This document shows, piece after piece, positions 20,874 through 32,163 of a DNA stretch of 43,572 nucleotides. Positions within the stretch are counted from its first letter, which is position 1. Each line of letters opens with the position of its first letter. The notes under the pieces were generated by a model. It did not search any database. It saw only the letters and a list, made by a program, of their open reading frames with translations, and was not told the DNA's origin. The stretch comes from Methanoculleus formosensis (GTDB lineage Archaea; Halobacteriota; Methanomicrobia; Methanomicrobiales; Methanoculleaceae). A program made the position numbers and the translations under genes. The stretch covers positions 1-43,572 of the forward strand of contig NZ_VHLL01000013.1 of assembly GCF_025384765.1 (NCBI RefSeq). Reading direction: 5' to 3'.

Positions 20874-21196
20874 GGAGATGTAGTTGGTCAGGGTAGGTTG
20901 TAAACATTTTGGATCGGTAAATAAGGTTTAATTGACCTGGATCGGGTTGCTGCGACGTATCGCCGGGAAGGTGCCGCCTAATCGCGGAATCATCGATATC
21001 AGCGGCCTATACCCCGGGTGACAAAAAATATGTCGAGGAAGCGATCAACTATATAGCATAAAAAGCCGGCCGAAGTTAAAAGAGTAAGTTTAAATTTATA
21101 TACTACTTAGTAGAGTAAAGCCACTATTAACATGCCCGGATCATCTGGACATGCATGGCAAAACCGACGTTGAATGCAACTATCGGGAGAATTCAC
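20874..21196. other. Divergent promoter region between fmdE-like gene and fdhA
   Basis: This 323-bp region holds no gene. On the minus side, aaacctta-type AT-rich sequence near 20912-20930 may serve the FmdE gene. On the plus side a long A/T-rich block with the fdh promoter (21089-21113) lies about 85-108 bp before the start at 21197. Otherwise I see nothing. Confidence 0.6.
21089..21113 (+). promoter_or_regulatory. fdhAB promoter: strong TATA box overlapped by a palindrome
   Basis: The AT-rich sequence tttaaatttatata (21089-21102) is an archaeal TATA box. Immediately after it, CTACT-T-AGTAG (21103-21113) is a perfect 11-bp palindrome, framed by AGAGTAA repeats on both sides (21081 and 21113). 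A repressor or activator bound here would cover the transcription initiation region. The fdhA transcript would start near 21125 and carry a leader of about 70 bases. Confidence 0.55.
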
Positions 21197-23266
21197 ATGG
21201 CTGACATTAATGGCAAATTACGTTACGTTCCCACAACCTGCCCCTACTGCGGCGTAGGGTGCGGACTCAACCTTGTGGTGAACGATGGCAAACTCGTGGG
21301 TGTCGAACCCTACAAGAGGAGCCCGATCAACGAGGGCAAACTCTGCCCCAAGGGAGCAACCTGCTGGGAGTTCGTCCAGAGCCCCGACCGTCTGACAAAG
21401 CCCCTCATCAAGAAGAACGGCGAGTTCGTCGAGGCTTCCTGGGACGAGGCTTATGATCTCATCGCCTCGAAGTTCACGGAGATCAGCGACAAGTACGGGC
21501 CGGACGCCCTCGGCTTCCAGGTCTCGTGCCGGACTCCGAACGAAGAGTGCTACATCATGCAGAAACTCGCGCGCGTCGCCTTCAAGACCAACAACATCGA
21601 CAACTGCGCGCGTATCTGCCACGGGCCGTCCGTCGCGGGGCTCTCGCTCTCGTTCGGCTCCGGCGCCGCGACGAACCCCTTCGAGGACGTCAAGAACGCC
21701 GACGTCATCTTCATGATCGGCGCGAACAGCGTCGAGGCGCACCCGCTCGCAGCACGCCGGGTCCTCCAGGCGAAGAAGGCCGGCAAGAAGGTCATCGTCT
21801 GCGACCCGCGCTACACGCCCACGGCGCGTCTGGCCGACGAGTACGTCCGCTACAACCCCTCGACGAACATCGCCCTGATCAACTCGATCATGTACTGGAT
21901 CATCCAGGAGAACCTCCACGACAAGGAGTTCATCGAGAAGAGGACGAGCGGGTTCGACGAACTGAAGAAGACCGTGGAGAACTACGCCGAGGTCGAGTCG
22001 ATCACCGGTGTGCCGACCGAGCGGGTCAAGGAGATCGCGCGGGCCTACGCCACCGCAGATAACGCGGTGATCATCTACTGTCTCGGCATCACGGAACTTT
22101 CCACCGGCACGGACAACGTCCGGTCGCTCGGAAACCTCGCGATGCTCACCGGCAACGTCGGGAGACCCGGTGTCGGTGTCAACCCGCTCCGTGGCCAGAA
22201 CAACGTCCAGGGCGCCTGCGACATGGGTGCGTACCCGAACGTCTTCTCCGGCTACCAGAAGTGCGAGGATGACGCCACCCGGAAGCGCATGGAAGAACTC
22301 TGGGGCGTCACCGGGCTTGCCAGCAACTACGGCGTGACCCTGACCGAACAGATCACCCAGTGCGGCGACCCGATCAAGGCGATGTACATCTTCGCGCTGA
22401 ACCCGGTCGTCTCCTACCCCGACTCGAACCACGTCATGCGGTCGCTTGAGAAGCTCGACTTCCTGGTCGTGCAGGACCTCTTCATGACCGAGACGGCGAA
22501 ATACGCCGACGTTATCCTGCCCGGCGCATCTTTCGCCGAGAAGGACGGGACGTTCACCAGCGGCGAGCGGCGTGTCAACCGTATCAGGAAGGCCGTCGAT
22601 ACCCCCGGAGACGCGAAGGAAGACTGGCAGATCTTCGTCGACCTCGCCCACAAACTCAATCTCAACGGGTTCGACTTCAACTCGCCCGAGGATATCTGGA
22701 ACGACATGCGCCGGGTCACCCCGTCGATGGCCGGTATCTCCTACGAGAGGATGGAGAAGCCCGAGTCCGTCCACTGGCCCTGCCCGACCCTCGAGCACCC
22801 CGGAACGCCGATCCTGCACCGCGAGAAGTTCTCGTCGGCCGATGGTCTCGGACACTTCTTCGGTATCGAGCACCGGCCGCCCGCGGAGGTCGCCGACGCC
22901 GAGTATCCGTTCACCCTGATGACCGGACGTCTGATCTTCCACTACCACACCCGGACCCAGACCGGCCGGGCGAAGATCCTCCACCAGGAGGTGCCGGAAG
23001 CCTACGTGCAGATCAACAACGAAGATGCAGCACGGCTGAGCATCCAGAACGGTGAGAAGATCCGGCTCAAGGGCAGGCGCGGGCAGGCAGAGGCTCTTGC
23101 CCGGGTGACCGACGAAGTCGCACCCGGCGTGCTGATGATGACGATGCACTTCGGCGGAGTCGGGTCTGTAAACCAGCTGACGAACACCGCTCTCGACCCG
23201 CTCTCCAAGATGCCGGAGTTGAAGCACAGTGCTGTTGCCGTCGAGAAGATCACGGGGGTGCAGTAA
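21197..23266 (+). CDS. fdhA: Formate dehydrogenase alpha (catalytic, molybdopterin) subunit
   Basis: FdhA oxidises formate to CO2 at a molybdenum or tungsten bis-MGD centre and passes electrons through a 4Fe-4S cluster to FdhB. The protein has 689 residues from the ATG at 21197, which follows GGGAGAATTCAC; an in-frame ATG at 21155 has no site. Cluster ligands are Cys15, Cys18, Cys22 and Cys50 (TTCPYCGVGCG, then LCPKG). The metal ligand is Cys137 in DNCARICHG and is encoded by TGC, not by a selenocysteine UGA. No twin-arginine signal is present, so it is cytoplasmic. It is immediately followed by fdhB and served by FdhD and MoeA nearby. Confidence 0.97.
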   Translation: MADINGKLRYVPTTCPYCGVGCGLNLVVNDGKLVGVEPYKRSPINEGKLCPKGATCWEFVQSPDRLTKPLIKKNGEFVEASWDEAYDLIASKFTEISDKYGPDALGFQVSCRTPNEECYIMQKLARVAFKTNNIDNCARICHGPSVAGLSLSFGSGAATNPFEDVKNADVIFMIGANSVEAHPLAARRVLQAKKAGKKVIVCDPRYTPTARLADEYVRYNPSTNIALINSIMYWIIQENLHDKEFIEKRTSGFDELKKTVENYAEVESITGVPTERVKEIARAYATADNAVIIYCLGITELSTGTDNVRSLGNLAMLTGNVGRPGVGVNPLRGQNNVQGACDMGAYPNVFSGYQKCEDDATRKRMEELWGVTGLASNYGVTLTEQITQCGDPIKAMYIFALNPVVSYPDSNHVMRSLEKLDFLVVQDLFMTETAKYADVILPGASFAEKDGTFTSGERRVNRIRKAVDTPGDAKEDWQIFVDLAHKLNLNGFDFNSPEDIWNDMRRVTPSMAGISYERMEKPESVHWPCPTLEHPGTPILHREKFSSADGLGHFFGIEHRPPAEVADAEYPFTLMTGRLIFHYHTRTQTGRAKILHQEVPEAYVQINNEDAARLSIQNGEKIRLKGRRGQAEALARVTDEVAPGVLMMTMHFGGVGSVNQLTNTALDPLSKMPELKHSAVAVEKITGVQ

Positions 23267-24505
23267 ATGGCAGCAAAGGGAGATATGGTATACGCCTGGA
23301 CGACGAACGCCGACCTCGCCAAAGTGGCGGAATGCGGCGGTGCGGTGACCGGGCTCCTTAAGTACGCCCTCGAGAACAACATCGTCGACGCCGTGCTGGC
23401 GGTGAAGAAGGGCGTGGACCTCTACGACGCGGTTCCCACGATCATCACCGACCCCGCGGAGATCGGACAGACGGCAGGCTCGCTCCACTGCGGAACGCTT
23501 CTGCTCTCGAAACTGATCAAGAAGTACCTGGACGGTGCCGAGGACACGCGCCTTGCCGTGACGGTGAAGGGTTGCGACGCGATGGGTATCTACGAACTCG
23601 CGAAGCGCAACCAGATCAACCTGGACAACCTCCTGATGATCGGCGTCAACTGCGGCGGATCGGTCAGCCCGGTGACCGCCCGGAAGATGATCACCGAGAA
23701 GTTCGGGGTCGACCCGAACGACGTCGTCAAGGAAGAGATCGACAAGGGTCAGTTCATCATCGTCACGAAGGATGGCGAGCACAAGGGCATCTCGATGGAC
23801 GAACTCGAGGAGGCGGGCTTCGGCCGCCGCGGCAACTGCCGCCGGTGCAAGATGAAGATCCCCCGCCAGGCGGACCTCGCCTGCGGAAACTGGGGCGTCA
23901 TTGGCGATAAGGCCGGCAAGGCCACGTTCGTCGAGGTCTGCTCCGAGAAGGGCGCAAACCTCCTTGATGCGGCTGTCAGGTCCGGGGCGATCGCCACCGA
24001 GGCCGCGAACCCGAAAGGTATCGAGATCCGCGGCAAGGTCGAGAACTCGATGCTGAAACTCGGCGACAAGTGGCGGGCGCGCTACTTCGAGGGGCTCGGC
24101 GAAGGCAAGGAGCGTCTCCAGACGATCATGGAGGACTCGAGCCGGTGCACCAAGTGCTACGCCTGCATCGAGAACTGCCCGATCTGCTACTGTGTCGAGT
24201 GCAGCACGAAGAAGCCCTACCTGGTAGCGCCGGGTGTGCTCCCCGTGCCGTTCATGTTCCACCTGATCCGCTACGCTCACGTGGCAGACTCCTGTGTCAA
24301 CTGCGGCCAGTGCGAGGAGAACTGCCCGATGGAGATCGCGAACTCGCTCTACATGCACGCCCTGCAGACGGATATGGAGAAGATGTTCGGCCACACCCCG
24401 GGTGTGAACATGGATCTCCCGGTCCTCGCGCTCGTCGAGGAGCAGGCGGAACGCCAGCGGCTCTTCGCAACCGGCAGCGACCAGATCTTCGACGTATTCA
24501 AATAA
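23267..24505 (+). CDS. fdhB: Formate dehydrogenase beta (F420-reducing) subunit
   Basis: FdhB takes electrons from FdhA and reduces coenzyme F420, using FAD and iron-sulfur clusters. The 412-residue protein shares the FrhB-type F420-binding domain in the first about 280 residues (CDAMGIYELAK, then VNCGGS) and two 4Fe-4S motifs near residues 294 and 344 (SRCTKCYACIENCPICYC and DSCVNCGQCEENCPM). The ATG follows the fdhA stop without a gap, so the two are co-translated. Reduced F420 would feed methanogenesis or hydrogen production. A hairpin after the stop (24519-24545) may end the operon. Confidence 0.97.
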   Translation: MAAKGDMVYAWTTNADLAKVAECGGAVTGLLKYALENNIVDAVLAVKKGVDLYDAVPTIITDPAEIGQTAGSLHCGTLLLSKLIKKYLDGAEDTRLAVTVKGCDAMGIYELAKRNQINLDNLLMIGVNCGGSVSPVTARKMITEKFGVDPNDVVKEEIDKGQFIIVTKDGEHKGISMDELEEAGFGRRGNCRRCKMKIPRQADLACGNWGVIGDKAGKATFVEVCSEKGANLLDAAVRSGAIATEAANPKGIEIRGKVENSMLKLGDKWRARYFEGLGEGKERLQTIMEDSSRCTKCYACIENCPICYCVECSTKKPYLVAPGVLPVPFMFHLIRYAHVADSCVNCGQCEENCPMEIANSLYMHALQTDMEKMFGHTPGVNMDLPVLALVEEQAERQRLFATGSDQIFDVFK

Positions 24506-24777: not shown

Positions 24778-25248
24778 ATGCGATTTGCAGGTCCGCTTAT
24801 TGTTGTTCACGACATCGGGATATCCAGAGCCTTCTACGAAGAGGTACTCGGCCAGAAGGTCGGCTACGATCTCGGTGAGAACGTAGCGTTCGAGGGCGGT
24901 TTTGCGATCCACCTCCGGTCGCATTTTGCCGATCTGATCGGCGTCGACGCAGACGATATCATCCGGGGATCGAACAACGCCGAACTCTACTTCGAAGAGG
25001 ACGACCTGGATGCCTTTCTCGAAAGGCTCAACGGGATGGACTCCGTGAAGTACGTGCACGGCATGATCGAGCAGCCCTGGGGGCAGCGGGTGATCAGGCT
25101 GTATGATCCCGATCTGCACATCGTCGAGGTCGGCGAGCCCATGGAGAGCGTGGTGAAGAGGCTTCTTCGGAGCGGGCTCTCGGTCGAAGAGACCGCACGG
25201 CGCACCTCGATGCCCGAAGAGTTCGTCCGGCAGTGTGTAGGGCCATAA
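24778..25248 (+). CDS. VOC-family (glyoxalase/bleomycin resistance fold) protein
   Basis: The 156-residue protein has the VOC fold pattern: PLIVVHDIGISRAFYEEVLGQKV at the N-terminus, a central NAELYFEEDDLDAFLERL and a metal-ligand-like PDLHIVEVGEPM near residue 115. The final about 30 residues (LSVEETARRTSMPEEFVRQCV) look like a helix-turn-helix-type addition not usual for simple VOC enzymes. The substrate is unknown. It sits between fdhB and fdhD on the same strand but with 272 bp and 109 bp gaps, so membership in the formate operon is uncertain. Confidence 0.8.
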   Translation: MRFAGPLIVVHDIGISRAFYEEVLGQKVGYDLGENVAFEGGFAIHLRSHFADLIGVDADDIIRGSNNAELYFEEDDLDAFLERLNGMDSVKYVHGMIEQPWGQRVIRLYDPDLHIVEVGEPMESVVKRLLRSGLSVEETARRTSMPEEFVRQCVGP

Positions 25249-25357: not shown

Positions 25358-26083
25358 ATGTTCAAGAAAATTGCCTGTATCCGTATCGGTGGGGGGAGCG
25401 TCACCCACGACGCCGCCGAAGAGAAACCGGTTGCGATCTTCGTCAACGGCCGGCACCTGACGACCGTCATCCTGAGCCCCGGCGGTTTTGAGGATTTCAT
25501 CACCGGCTATCTCTACACCGAGGAGATCATCCGGAGCGCTGACGAGATCGAGTCGATCAGGATCGAGGAGAACCGGATCAGCGTCATCACGAAGAACATC
25601 TTCAAGCGGGTCAGCGTAAAAAAGACCATCCTCTCCGGCTGCGGGGGGGCGGTCTCCTACATCGACACCCAGAAACTGCCCGCGATCGAGTCAGGTATCG
25701 TGGTTGCCGTGCCCGAGATCGAGGCCGCCGCTGCCGCCCTCACCGGCCCGCTCGATTCGGTTGTTCTTGCATCGGAAGGCCGTGTCGTCGCCCGCGCAGA
25801 AGATCTCGACCGGCACAACGCCCTTGACCGCGTGATCGGGAGGGGGCTCCTTGACCGTCTCGACCTCTCCCGGACGGTTGCGGTCTGCACCGGCACGGTC
25901 ACCTCCGAGATGGTCAGGAAGTGCCTCATGGCAAACATCCCGTTGCTCGCCTCCACCGGCGCCCCGACCGCGCTTGCCGTGGAGGTTGCGGAGGAGACCG
26001 AACTCTGTATCGTCGGGGCCGCGGGGACGCCGGAGATGGCGGTGTATACGCATCCGGAGAGGATAGAGGGGATGGAGGGGTGA
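25358..26083 (+). CDS. fdhD: Formate dehydrogenase accessory sulfurtransferase FdhD
   Basis: FdhD passes sulfur from a cysteine desulfurase to the molybdopterin cofactor of formate dehydrogenase, which is required for activity. The 241-residue protein starts after GTGAGGAAAC, contains ILSPGGFEDFITGYLYTEEII (about residues 45-65), the loop SGCGGAVSY with the single active-loop Cys, and GTVTSEMVRKCLMANIPLLASTGAPTALAVEVA. Its location near fdhAB fits the role. A cysteine desulfurase-containing fusion lies nearby (26440-29079) in convergent orientation and could supply the sulfur, which is inference. Confidence 0.93.
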   Translation: MFKKIACIRIGGGSVTHDAAEEKPVAIFVNGRHLTTVILSPGGFEDFITGYLYTEEIIRSADEIESIRIEENRISVITKNIFKRVSVKKTILSGCGGAVSYIDTQKLPAIESGIVVAVPEIEAAAAALTGPLDSVVLASEGRVVARAEDLDRHNALDRVIGRGLLDRLDLSRTVAVCTGTVTSEMVRKCLMANIPLLASTGAPTALAVEVAEETELCIVGAAGTPEMAVYTHPERIEGMEG

Positions 26084-26439: not shown

Positions 26440-29079
26440 TCACCGTCCCCGGCTGATCTCGTCGACGGCCGCAACCAGGAGGTCGATCTCGTGCTCCGTC
26501 GTGAAGGCCGCCATGCTCGCCCGCACCGTCCCTTCCGGGAGGTTCAGGTGCTCCATCAGCGGCTGGCAGCAGTGGTGCCCCGACCGCACCAGGATCTCTG
26601 CATCCTCGTCGAGCATCTGCGCGGCCTCCTGCGGGTGGACGCCGTCGATGGTGAACGAAACGACGCCTATCCGGGCCCCGGACTTCTTTCCGGCATAGAC
26701 CGTGACCCCGTCGATCCCGGAGAGCCCCGCGATCAGCCGGGCGGTCAGGCGTTCCTCATGTTGGTGGATCCGCTCCATCCCGACCGCCGAGAGGTAGTCC
26801 ACGGCGACGCCGAGCGCGATCCCGCCGCCGACGTTCGGCGTCCCGGCCTCGTAGCGCTGGTAGCCCTCCGCGGGGACGTAGCCTTCGGCGGTCACGCTCG
26901 CGACCATCCCCCCGCCGAGGACCGGCGGCTCAAGGAGCGCCTCGCGCATCCAGAGCACCCCCGTCCCCATCGGCCCGAACATCTTGTGCCCCGCAAAGCA
27001 GAGGAAGTCGCAGCCGAGTTCCGCGACGTTCACCGGCATGTGCGGCAGCGTCTGCGCCCCGTCCACGAGGAGGAGCGCGTCGTGCTCCCGGCAGAGCCGG
27101 GCTATCTCGGGGACCGGCGTCGTCACGCCGAGGACGTTTGAAGCGTGGGTGACGCTGACGAGCCGGACGCCGCCGCCGGCAAGGCTCTCCTCGAACGCGG
27201 CAAGGTCGAGCGCGTAGTCGGCATCGATCCCGACCACGTCGAGCGCGACCCCCTGTTTCGCAAGCGCCCACCAGGGGAGGAAGTTTGAGTGGTGTTCGAG
27301 GATGGTGGTCACCACGCGGTCGCCCGGCTTCCAGGAGAGGCCCTGCGCGACCATGTTGATCGCGTCCGTGGCGTTCTTCGTGAAGACCGTTACCCCCGCC
27401 TCCCCGCCGATGAACCGGGCCACCTTCTCGTGGGCGTGCCAGTAGCGCTGCGTCGCGATCCGGGTCAGGCGGTGGACGCCACGGCCGACGTTCGCCCGGT
27501 AGCGGTGCTCGAACTCGACCGCCGCCTCAACCACCGGCTCCGGCGAGAAGGTCGTCGCTGCGTTGTCGAGATAGATGATGTCGCCGAGGATCGGGAAGTC
27601 CTTCCTGATCTCGTCCGGGACGGACTCGATCTCTGCCGGCGGTGCCGGCTTCTGGGTATCCATACTCTTCATGCTTGCCGCCCGGGCCTCCTTCTTCACC
27701 GGGCCCTCCTTCAGGGTGAAGTCCGCGTTCACGGCGATCCCTCGCTCCCGGCAGACCTCGCGCATCTTCGGGGGCAGCGCCCGCCACCGCCAGAGCCCCC
27801 ACTGGTGGTAGGCGTCCGGCAACCCGTTCTTCTCCGCCCAACGGACAAGGAACTCGTCCCAGCGATCCGTCAGGTCGGGGTGCATCTCCCGGAGCCCCTC
27901 GTACTCGCTCTCGAGCGCCGCCGGGCAGAGGTAGCAGCCTATCCGCTCAAGACCCTTCTCGTAGAGCGGGTTCATGGGAACCTCCTGCCACCAGAGGTAA
28001 AGGAAGACCTCGAGCGCCCGCCAGTTCCGGATCGGCGAGATGTTCAACTGCAGGGGATTTGCCGGGTTCTGGCTCGTCTCGTCGAGGTCGGCCCGGTTCC
28101 AGGACTCGTACCAACGGTTCCCCTGGATGGTGACGCAGGCGCCGGTATCGGCGAGGTAGATCTTCAAGGGGTGGAGTTTCAGGAGTTTGCAGCACCAACG
28201 GTGGTCCTTCCCCGGCGGCCCTGCCTTCTCGACCGCCTGGAAGAAATCGCCGCCCTTCCGGACGATCTCGACGCCCTGCGACGCCACGAACTCCACCGTC
28301 TCGGGGAGTTCGATCCCGGTATCGATGAAGAACGCCTTCTCCACCCCTGCCTTGCGGGCGAGGTGGAGGACGGCGGTGCTGTCCTTGCCGCCGGAGAACG
28401 AGACGTTCGCGCACGGCCGGTCGTTCATATGCTTTTTGATGGTGCGGACGGCGTTGCGCTCAAGGTTCTTTAAGTGGTAGCGGTTCCTCTCGATCACCAC
28501 GTCCCAGCCCGGGTCGGGCCGGGTGCGGGGGGTGACGGAGACGAGTTCTTTCACCCGGACCTGGCCGTCCTTGACGACGCCGGTCCCGAACCGGTTCTTA
28601 TAGGCGACGATGGCCGTTCCATCGGGAACGGCGGTTGCGAGGGCGAACCGTTTCCCGCCGACGCGGCCCTTATGCGCGCGCACCGCGGGCTCGGCATCGA
28701 GGTCGATGATGCCCCGCGTTGCGTGCCCCAGGATGTACGGGAGCGCTTCGGGGGCGATATCGAGGCTGAACTTCCGGGTGACCGGGTCGAACGCGAGCCA
28801 GCCGAACCGGTCGCCGTGGACGATCACGAGGTCGGCCCGGTCGGCGCCGCCGGTCTTGTTCAGGAGCACGACCCGGGGCAGGGGGACATCGCCGAACCGT
28901 TCGGTAAGAAGACGCTGTATGAGGGCCGTATCCGCTGCGAGGGCCGGGCGGACGTCGTGCGGCTGCAGGAGCTCGATCTCCCGGACCCTCGTCTTGCAGG
29001 AGCAGGTGCGCCCGATGAGGGGGACGTTGCACTCGTCGCACCAGTAGAGAACTTTTTTTACTGCCGGTTCGCGGTTCAC
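26440..29079 (-). CDS. PAPS-reductase-like ATP pyrophosphatase fused to a cysteine desulfurase
   Basis: Taking the GTG at 29079, the 879-residue protein has an N-terminal zinc-finger-like CDEC/CSC pair (14-28), a PUA-like stretch (about 100-185), a PAPS reductase/ATP pyrophosphatase domain with FSGGKDSTAV (228-237), HRWCCK and GCYLCPA (381-387), then a SufS-type cysteine desulfurase from about 495. The latter has the PLP lysine in CFAGHKMFGPMG and the catalytic Cys in SGHHCCQP. One polypeptide thus joins sulfur release from cysteine with ATP-dependent activation of a target. PUA-like and zinc domains suggest RNA thiolation, but this is inference. The frame is open further upstream without ATG homology. 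No stop or frameshift separates the halves. Confidence 0.85.
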   Translation of the reverse strand: MNREPAVKKVLYWCDECNVPLIGRTCSCKTRVREIELLQPHDVRPALAADTALIQRLLTERFGDVPLPRVVLLNKTGGADRADLVIVHGDRFGWLAFDPVTRKFSLDIAPEALPYILGHATRGIIDLDAEPAVRAHKGRVGGKRFALATAVPDGTAIVAYKNRFGTGVVKDGQVRVKELVSVTPRTRPDPGWDVVIERNRYHLKNLERNAVRTIKKHMNDRPCANVSFSGGKDSTAVLHLARKAGVEKAFFIDTGIELPETVEFVASQGVEIVRKGGDFFQAVEKAGPPGKDHRWCCKLLKLHPLKIYLADTGACVTIQGNRWYESWNRADLDETSQNPANPLQLNISPIRNWRALEVFLYLWWQEVPMNPLYEKGLERIGCYLCPAALESEYEGLREMHPDLTDRWDEFLVRWAEKNGLPDAYHQWGLWRWRALPPKMREVCRERGIAVNADFTLKEGPVKKEARAASMKSMDTQKPAPPAEIESVPDEIRKDFPILGDIIYLDNAATTFSPEPVVEAAVEFEHRYRANVGRGVHRLTRIATQRYWHAHEKVARFIGGEAGVTVFTKNATDAINMVAQGLSWKPGDRVVTTILEHHSNFLPWWALAKQGVALDVVGIDADYALDLAAFEESLAGGGVRLVSVTHASNVLGVTTPVPEIARLCREHDALLLVDGAQTLPHMPVNVAELGCDFLCFAGHKMFGPMGTGVLWMREALLEPPVLGGGMVASVTAEGYVPAEGYQRYEAGTPNVGGGIALGVAVDYLSAVGMERIHQHEERLTARLIAGLSGIDGVTVYAGKKSGARIGVVSFTIDGVHPQEAAQMLDEDAEILVRSGHHCCQPLMEHLNLPEGTVRASMAAFTTEHEIDLLVAAVDEISRGR

Positions 29080-30343: not shown

Positions 30344-30973
30344 GTGGGCATTAAGGAGTGGGTAGTCCCCCAGGACAAGGCATTCTTCGACCTTTTTGAC
30401 GAGATGGCCGGGACAGTCGTCGCCGCAGCCGATCTCCTCGTCGACTTCGTCGAAAATTTCGAGAACGTGAAAGAGAAGTGCCGTCAGGTGAAACAGCTCG
30501 AGCACCGGGGAGACGACATCACACACCAGATCTACGAGCAGCTGAACCGGACGTTCATCACGCCGCTTGAGCCCGAAGAGATCTCCCGCCTCGCTTCAGC
30601 GCTGGACGACATCCTCGACTACATCGACGGCACCGCACAGCAGATGTACAGTTACGGCATCACCGAGACCGACGACTCGATGGTCCAGCTGGCAAAGTTG
30701 ATCCAGCTCAGCGTCGTCGAGATCGAGAAGGCCGTCACCGGCATACGGTCGATCAAGGACCCGGGCCTGATCGAAGAGCGATGCATCGAGGTGAACCGCC
30801 TGGAGAACATCGCGGACAACGTCCTCGGCCATGCCATCATGGACATCTTCAAGACGAAGGATGCGATCACCATCATCAAGCTCAAGGACATCTACGAGAA
30901 CCTGGAGATGGCGACCGACAAGTGTGAAGACGTCGCCAACGTCTTGAGCGACATAGCCATCAGACATTCCTGA
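30344..30973 (+). CDS. DUF47-family (PhoU-like) phosphate transport regulator
   Basis: The 209-residue all-helical protein belongs to DUF47, a PhoU-like family that regularly pairs with Pit transporters and probably tunes phosphate uptake. Signatures are FDLFDEMAGTVVAAADLL at the N-terminus, LEHRGDDITHQIYEQLNRTFITPLE and LENIADNVLG with the acidic metal-binding positions. The start is GTG at 30344. A TATA-like cttatag precedes by 10-20 bp, and another tatata-like box lies near 30305. The Pit gene follows after five bases, so they form a two-gene operon. Confidence 0.9.
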   Translation: MGIKEWVVPQDKAFFDLFDEMAGTVVAAADLLVDFVENFENVKEKCRQVKQLEHRGDDITHQIYEQLNRTFITPLEPEEISRLASALDDILDYIDGTAQQMYSYGITETDDSMVQLAKLIQLSVVEIEKAVTGIRSIKDPGLIEERCIEVNRLENIADNVLGHAIMDIFKTKDAITIIKLKDIYENLEMATDKCEDVANVLSDIAIRHS

Positions 30974-30978
30974 GCGCT

Positions 30979-32163
30979 ATGGACCCGATCGTCATCCTCG
31001 GCATTCTTCTAGCCCTCCTCTTTAATTTTGCAAACGGCTTGAACGATGCCGCCAACTCGATCGCCACCATCATCGCGACAAAAGCCCTGACCCCCCTGCA
31101 GGCGGTCCTCCTCGCGGGGGTCTTCAACCTCCTCGGCCCTCTCCTCTTCACTACGGCAATTGCAGCAACCATTGGAAGAGGGATCGTCGACCCCTCCTTC
31201 CTTACGCCGACGCTGATCCTGGTGGCCCTGGTCGGTGCGGTCCTCTGGGTCCTCGTGACATCGTTCCTCGGGATCCCGGTATCGAGCAGCCACGCCCTGA
31301 TCGGGGGCCTCCTCGGCACGGGAATCGCTGCGGCGGGGACGGGGGCGGTGCTCTGGCCGTCGCTTGATATGGTCGAGCAGGTCCTCTTCTACGGGCTCAC
31401 CGGCGCGGTCCTCGGTGCGGTCGTCACGGGTGTGGTTGCGTATCATCGGGGTGACTTCAAGCCGTGGAACCTCCTCCTCGGCGGACTCATCGGGGTGACG
31501 GCGGTCATCCCGCTCGCCATGGCAACCGGATTTTTGAAGATCAGCGGCATCCTCGGGATCCTGATCTTCATCGTCGTCTCCCCGATGCTCGGGTTCATCG
31601 TGGCGTTCGCCCTCAGCACCCTCGTCGTCAATGTCTTCCGCAACTATCATCCGCGGCGCCTCTCAGGCCTTTTTCGGAACCTCCAGATCTTCTCGGGGTC
31701 GTTTCAGGCGATCGGCCACGGCGCGAACGATGCCCAGAACGCGATGGGCATCATCACCGCCATGCTCCTTGCCGGCGGGCTGATTGCCGAGTTCTCGGTC
31801 CCGCTCTGGGTCATACTGGCCTCTTCGCTCGCCATGTCGGTCGGGACGCTCCTCGGGGGCTGGCGGGTCATCGACAAGATGGCCAACCGGATTACGAAGA
31901 TCCGGCCCTACCAGGGATTTTCGGCATCGGCCACTGCCGGCGGCGTCCTCTCGCTGATGACGATCTTCGGTATCTCCGTCTCGACGACCCATGCGACGAC
32001 CGGCGCGATCATGGGTGTCGGCGCAACCCGCGGCTACTCGGCGGTCAAGTGGGGCGTGGTCCGCGAGATCGTCGCCGCGTGGGTCCTGACCATCCCGGCG
32101 GCGGCGATCGTGGCCGGGCTCTGCTACGTTGTCGGCCAGGCGGCGTTTGGTGGGAGTGTCTGA
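30979..32163 (+). CDS. pitA: Inorganic phosphate transporter, PiT family
   Basis: PiT transporters move phosphate with protons or sodium across the membrane. The 394-residue protein has about ten membrane helices and the two signature repeats: FNFANGLNDAANSIATIIATKAL at the N-terminus (split as ANGLNDAANS) and GHGANDAQNAMGI in the second half, plus VSSSHALIGGLLG and VSTTHATTGAIMG. It follows the DUF47 gene with a five-base gap. A hairpin (32306-32325) lies about 145 bp downstream. The PHO4 family call is firm; the ion coupling is not decided by sequence. Confidence 0.94.
   Translation: MDPIVILGILLALLFNFANGLNDAANSIATIIATKALTPLQAVLLAGVFNLLGPLLFTTAIAATIGRGIVDPSFLTPTLILVALVGAVLWVLVTSFLGIPVSSSHALIGGLLGTGIAAAGTGAVLWPSLDMVEQVLFYGLTGAVLGAVVTGVVAYHRGDFKPWNLLLGGLIGVTAVIPLAMATGFLKISGILGILIFIVVSPMLGFIVAFALSTLVVNVFRNYHPRRLSGLFRNLQIFSGSFQAIGHGANDAQNAMGIITAMLLAGGLIAEFSVPLWVILASSLAMSVGTLLGGWRVIDKMANRITKIRPYQGFSASATAGGVLSLMTIFGISVSTTHATTGAIMGVGATRGYSAVKWGVVREIVAAWVLTIPAAAIVAGLCYVVGQAAFGGSV

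Follow-up and report, generated by a model that had tools for sequence, protein, structure and literature searches.

A fusion of a PAPS-reductase-fold module with a SufS-type cysteine desulfurase in Methanomicrobiales and its association with FdhD

Where does the sulfur go in a methanogen protein that joins a PAPS-reductase-like domain to a cysteine desulfurase? The question is raised by the window analysed here, a stretch of 43,572 nucleotides from Methanoculleus formosensis (contig NZ_VHLL01000013.1), in which a single open reading frame filled the fusion gene exactly (Table 1), beginning with a GTG at position 29079 and encoding 879 amino acids; an alternative TTG start upstream would give a fusion protein of 922 amino acids. 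From the N to the C terminus the protein comprised a zinc ribbon, a PUA-derived region, a PP-loop domain, a disordered linker and a SufS desulfurase. Pfam matched PAPS_reduct (3.5e-36) and Aminotran_5 at residues 502-868 (3.8e-117), and the NCBIfam models of PRK13795 type (residues 8-453, 2.6e-119) and SufS (490-876, 9.6e-121) both matched under their curated cut-offs. As approximately 119 full-length, single-frame copies were present across 199 genomes of the order Methanomicrobiales, the fusion is not an assembly artefact: it is a real gene conserved across the order, and the combination of PUA-like, PAPS-reductase-like and desulfurase modules in one protein, proposed in an initial annotation made from the letters of the window, was confirmed. 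The N-terminal module of M. chikugoensis shared 94-95% identity with that of the window protein.

Table 1. Features of the fusion gene and the neighbouring formate dehydrogenase locus, in positions of the window
Feature	Position	Strand	Evidence
Fusion gene P0001 (PRK13795-type N-terminal module and SufS)	26440..29079	-	Open reading frame and domain scans; order-wide conservation
Zinc ribbon (C14, C17, C26, C28) and PUA-derived barrel, residues 1-186	28522..29079	-	Near-invariant Cys; PF01472 in relatives, without a match here; AF2 pLDDT mostly >90
PAPS_reduct/PP-loop domain, residues 225-387; SGGKDS 229-234; Cys pairs 296-297 and 382/385	27919..28407	-	Pfam; 53/53 aligned relatives; APS reductase-like fold
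Linker, residues 456-501, predicted disordered	27577..27714	-	pLDDT <50 at 462-510
SufS-type cysteine desulfurase, residues 502-868; H596, K699 (PLP Lys), catalytic C837	26476..27576	-	Domain scans, motifs, VIA Z about 45
fdhD, conserved neighbour; relay Cys95 at 25640-25642	25358..26083	+	Matches FdhD structures 2pw9 and 4pde; synteny; Cys test
fdhA (21155-23266) and fdhB (23267-24505), likely FdhD client	21155..24505	+	Open reading frame translations; fdhA homologs across the order

The desulfurase half appeared catalytically competent. H596, K699 and C837 were all present in the window protein, the last within the SGHHCC motif (residues 833-838) that had been read as the active site of a SufS-type enzyme, and the PLP lysine, conserved histidine and catalytic cysteine (RxGHHC loop) were kept in 25-26 of the 26 SufS rows aligned. 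Against TIGR01979 this half scored 403.4 bits, below the curated NCBIfam cut-off of 475.1, and we therefore term it SufS-type and not a member of the family model; the full-length model returned SufS structures with a VIA Z of about 45. A SufS tree, built by a quick method with SH-aLRT support, placed all fused domains, including two later splits, in one clade (99) nested inside a group of fdhD-linked SufS proteins (100) and apart from other SufS genes. Two separate IscS-type genes were also found in the M. formosensis genome.

That fdhD lies next door had been pointed out in the initial annotation, and the link proved far stronger than was claimed. In the window fdhD and the fusion gene are convergent, and comparison of neighbourhoods and coordinates found the two no more than 1.5 kb apart at 55 loci, covering 18 of 25 genera and four relative orientations; in genomes of Methanoregula type (g16) and Methanocorpusculum type (g20) the fused gene and fdhD were not neighbours. 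Standalone sufS genes of the same clade ended 0-2 nt (stop to start) upstream of fdhD in G015, G033, G175, G025, G121 and G168 (coupled pairs at loci L119, L120, L123, L124, L262 and L263) and adjoined it in G031 and G136. G163 and G167 carried a Cys-type FdhD, with no SufS of the fdhD-linked clade seen nearby in the neighbourhood view. The loop (relay) cysteine was kept in 34/34 distinct FdhDs of the SufS-linked type, compared with one of 15 alignable FdhDs of the distant type at the aligned column (three had a cysteine within four columns). Profile alignment to 4pde equated this residue with the first cysteine of the CGxCG motif of Escherichia coli FdhD, which we take to be Cys121, an assumption drawn from PMC10609526 together with general knowledge. 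In E. coli the cysteine desulfurase IscS feeds a Cys-bearing FdhD, and M. maripaludis lacks a desulfurase and has an FdhD without the loop cysteine (PMC10609526). The fusion and Cys-type FdhD also co-occurred across genomes (93/1/7/31; raw Fisher p 3e-22). An underpowered independent-pairs test found only three pairs, which nearly always pointed the expected way (p 0.25), so the raw value was rejected as proof and the co-occurrence is kept as consistent with a link.

Other features of the locus and genome were recorded alongside. The genes at 21155-24505 were named fdhA and fdhB on the basis of established family motifs, and the true start of fdhA is probably about 14 codons further in (21155-21199), as an in-frame stop in relatives just precedes the second methionine. 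Selenocysteine at apparent TGA codons in the fdhA genes of relatives was considered and rejected, since the stop preceded the true start in the two relatives read. Between fdhB and fdhD, positions 24778-25248 held a small ORF of 156 amino acids resembling VOC/glyoxalase proteins, and on the side of the fused gene facing away from fdhD the genus carried DUF47 and PitA-type phosphate transporter genes (30344-32163). A second, distant FdhD was encoded in the same genome (G000:C2:242694-243356), about 1.2 kb from an IscS-type gene (G000:C2:244573-245361); the distant FdhDs of relatives mostly lacked the loop cysteine.

The reading that we favour, with moderate confidence, is that the SufS domain passes persulfide to FdhD in trans and that the N-terminal half acts as a sulfurtransferase using ATP and an Fe-S cluster. 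Judging by its conserved catalytic residues, the SufS domain would load cysteine sulfur onto C837 as a persulfide; gene order, phylogeny and retention of the FdhD cysteine suggest that this persulfide could then be transferred in trans to loop Cys95 of FdhD, which would in turn sulfurate the Mo/W-bisPGD cofactor of formate dehydrogenase by the mechanism known for E. coli IscS-FdhD. The N-terminal module would be an ATP pyrophosphatase of the PAPS-reductase fold, using ATP and likely a 4Fe-4S cluster, and would most likely sulfurate an adenylated substrate, possibly RNA, without reducing PAPS. A bolder formulation, which we hold only tentatively and think somewhat doubtful, is that one polypeptide serves two unrelated sulfur destinations, FdhD and an ATP-dependent 4Fe-4S nucleic-acid sulfurtransferase of an orphan BrxP-related family that occurs in two classes of methanogens and is annotated as PAPS reductase.

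The conserved motifs of the N-terminal module were intact. C14, C17, C26 and C28 of the zinc ribbon were invariant or almost so among 53 aligned sequences, in agreement with the zinc finger noted earlier, and SGGKDS with C296, C297, C382 and C385 was present in 53/53 aligned relatives, so that the ATP pyrophosphatase core first recognised in the window is an intact ATP-type PP-loop accompanied by conserved Fe-S-type cysteines. These form a CC...CxxC set of APS-reductase type that aligned to 2goy, and a 4Fe-4S cluster is predicted. As SufS filled the fold search with the full model, the module was modelled alone (AF2 pLDDT 93.1, pTM 0.92); its nearest folds were APS reductases (Z about 15), FAD synthase (14.6) and CysD (13.3), and likeness to the tRNA thiolases TtuA and NcsA was lower (Z about 10), although families missing from these lists may still be related. 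Its profile best matched CysD in the PDB, followed by APS reductase with the cysteines aligned. Pfam PUA (PF01472) matched 13 of 50 aligned relatives (best 1.1e-24); the window protein itself had no match, and a PDB profile search for PUA structures with the alignment of the N-terminal 186 residues gave nothing significant. The PUA-like assignment thus stands by homology, the region being homologous to the true PUA of relatives and, on its sequence, degenerate here. Against the PRK13795-family models NF010366-NF010369 the module was homologous yet scored below cut-off (best 399 bits against 745). In a defence library its best PAPS-reductase match was BrxP (6.2e-38), and no DNA-modification, restriction or defence genes were recognised near fused genes when the neighbour clusters of the compared loci were read. 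The BrxP match, which in a Methanosarcinia homolog runs through the tail, makes nucleic-acid sulfur transfer by the module a reasonable proposal; RNA thiolation by this half is plausible, the putative RNA substrate being suggested by the degenerate PUA region. A second PUA-PAPS_reduct paralog without a desulfurase was found in the same genome beside a hisH-like gene (G000:C4:93692-95047; L002, L118), in a branch where the PUA is well recognised. Two Methanosarcinia proteins (L241, L244) combined PAPS_reduct with an alpha-beta region and a ferredoxin tail and matched type-4 BREX BrxP, L241 along 197-616; their surroundings showed no recognisable defence locus. A literature search for MJ0066 found nothing.

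The N-terminal module occurred alone and unfused in many Methanomicrobiales, and a search for the pair as separate genes, also proposed in the initial annotation, found occasional adjacent split genes (G157, G188 and G029). Methanosarcinia usually carried two copies per genome, with a ferredoxin-type tail in place of SufS. Unfused modules often lay between purH and grpE-dnaK-dnaJ (L101, L103, L105-L110, L114, L117). In two trees of the module the fused proteins fell mostly in one group (SH-aLRT 97 and 90), and later losses of SufS were seen in G001, G043, G047, G077 and G117, all without a Cys-type FdhD. The module probably originated in the dnaK-purH region as a gene of its own, with fusion to an fdhD-linked sufS following later.

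The purpose first ascribed to the fusion differs from the trans reading: SufS would supply the PP-loop module with persulfide in cis, making the protein a substrate-channelling thiolase of RNA. The ATP-type SGGKDS, zinc ribbon, Fe-S-type cysteines and the PUA of paralogs are what such an enzyme might carry, the fold resembles TtuA and NcsA, and DNA phosphorothioation systems repeatedly pair an enzyme of the PAPS-reductase fold with a cysteine desulfurase, BrxP being the best PAPS-reductase match of the module in the defence library. Against it, many relatives have the module unfused or ferredoxin-tailed, the PUA signature is undetectable in the window protein, and the full-length AF2 model (pTM 0.57) combined a long disordered linker with no predicted SufS/PP-loop interface. 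In all three species of genus g33 (L039 = G175, L260 = G121, L261 = G168), moreover, the catalytic cysteine of the fused SufS was replaced by glycine, and G175 had also lost the PLP lysine (K699), whereas the PP-loop was intact throughout, as were the Fe-S-type cysteines in G175; each of these genomes also carried a separate, intact sufS-fdhD operon. Since the neighbouring cysteine (838) remains, residual activity of the fused SufS may persist. The g33 pattern fits retention of SufS catalysis for FdhD and suggests that the module needs no active SufS in cis. The initial interpretation is partly supported: the domain architecture, the active-looking SufS, the ATP-type PP-loop with its cysteines and the FdhD link agree with it. 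Obligate channelling in cis is not supported, and we consider this thiolase unlikely. Less probable still, indeed hardly credible, is that gene order produced the fusion by accident, with SufS supplying general Fe-S or tRNA sulfur and the halves having no joint or FdhD-specific role: the additional IscS-type genes and the distance between fused gene and fdhD in some genera would agree with it, but same-clade sufS-fdhD operons are directly coupled and adjacency to fdhD recurs in several orientations.

By its annotation the protein would be an assimilatory APS/PAPS reductase extended by a desulfurase. This assignment draws on the PAPS_reduct match, on APS reductases as nearest folds with CC/CxxC cysteines in common, on the name given in PMC6286981 and PMC11237513, and on the in vitro APS/PAPS reduction reported for M. 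jannaschii relatives (cited in PMC6286981 and PMC10322725). The order is nearly devoid of sulfate activation genes: Sat was found in 1/135 genomes, CysD over cut-off in 3/135 and a clear APS kinase in 6/135, the APS kinase tally of 124 over cut-off being made up mostly of short, near-cut-off matches. In M. formosensis itself Sat and CysD were not found and APS kinase gave just 3e-4 over fragments. The C-terminal ECGxH cysteine was absent from every aligned Methanomicrobiales member, no cysteine being conserved after C385, and the intact ATP-type PP-loop and best PDB profile match to ATP-binding CysD also argue against this function. With the ECGxH cysteine absent and sulfate activation genes nearly so, PAPS reduction appears unlikely, and we regard a reductase as improbable.

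If transfer from SufS to FdhD in trans is correct, formate-using methanogens would mature formate dehydrogenase with a cysteine desulfurase reserved for this task, which has been investigated chiefly for IscS of E. coli, and the FdhD loop cysteine with a linked SufS would be a simple marker for archaeal FdhDs that use cysteine sulfur. The evidence also argues for a function other than PAPS reduction in a widespread methanogen family named "PAPS reductase".

Fusions of the same kind have been described as a putative APS/PAPS reductase that carries a cysteine desulfurase at its C terminus (PMC6286981, 2018) and as CysH-SufS fusion cluster 536, restricted to Methanomicrobiales (PMC11237513, 2024). 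Both studies place the fusion in sulfate assimilation, against which the missing ATP sulfurylase and APS kinase argue, and their main texts do not mention FdhD; the suggestion that the SufS half goes with FdhD is new here. Proteins of the PRK13795 family (NF010366-NF010369), with zinc ribbon, PUA, PAPS_reduct and ferredoxin as in Methanosarcinia, are homologous along the whole N-terminal module, but the window protein has SufS instead of the ferredoxin tail and scores below their cut-offs. The phosphorothioation systems of BrxP, SspD and DndC with DndA likewise pair a PAPS-reductase-fold enzyme with a cysteine desulfurase, and the tail through which the Methanosarcinia homolog matches BrxP is of a kind described for BrxP (PMC12839542); unlike them, the window protein is fused, its desulfurase is SufS-type and not DndA/IscS-type, and no modification or defence genes are among its recognised neighbours. 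The E. coli IscS-FdhD pair is likewise a desulfurase feeding a Cys-bearing FdhD (PMC10609526), whereas here a SufS-type enzyme is the donor, either as part of a fusion with an unrelated module or from a gene directly coupled to fdhD. The tRNA thiolases TtuA and NcsA share with the fusion a PP-loop, zinc motifs and an Fe-S cluster (predicted in the fusion). They differ from it in PP-loop subfamily, sulfur donor and cysteine arrangement.
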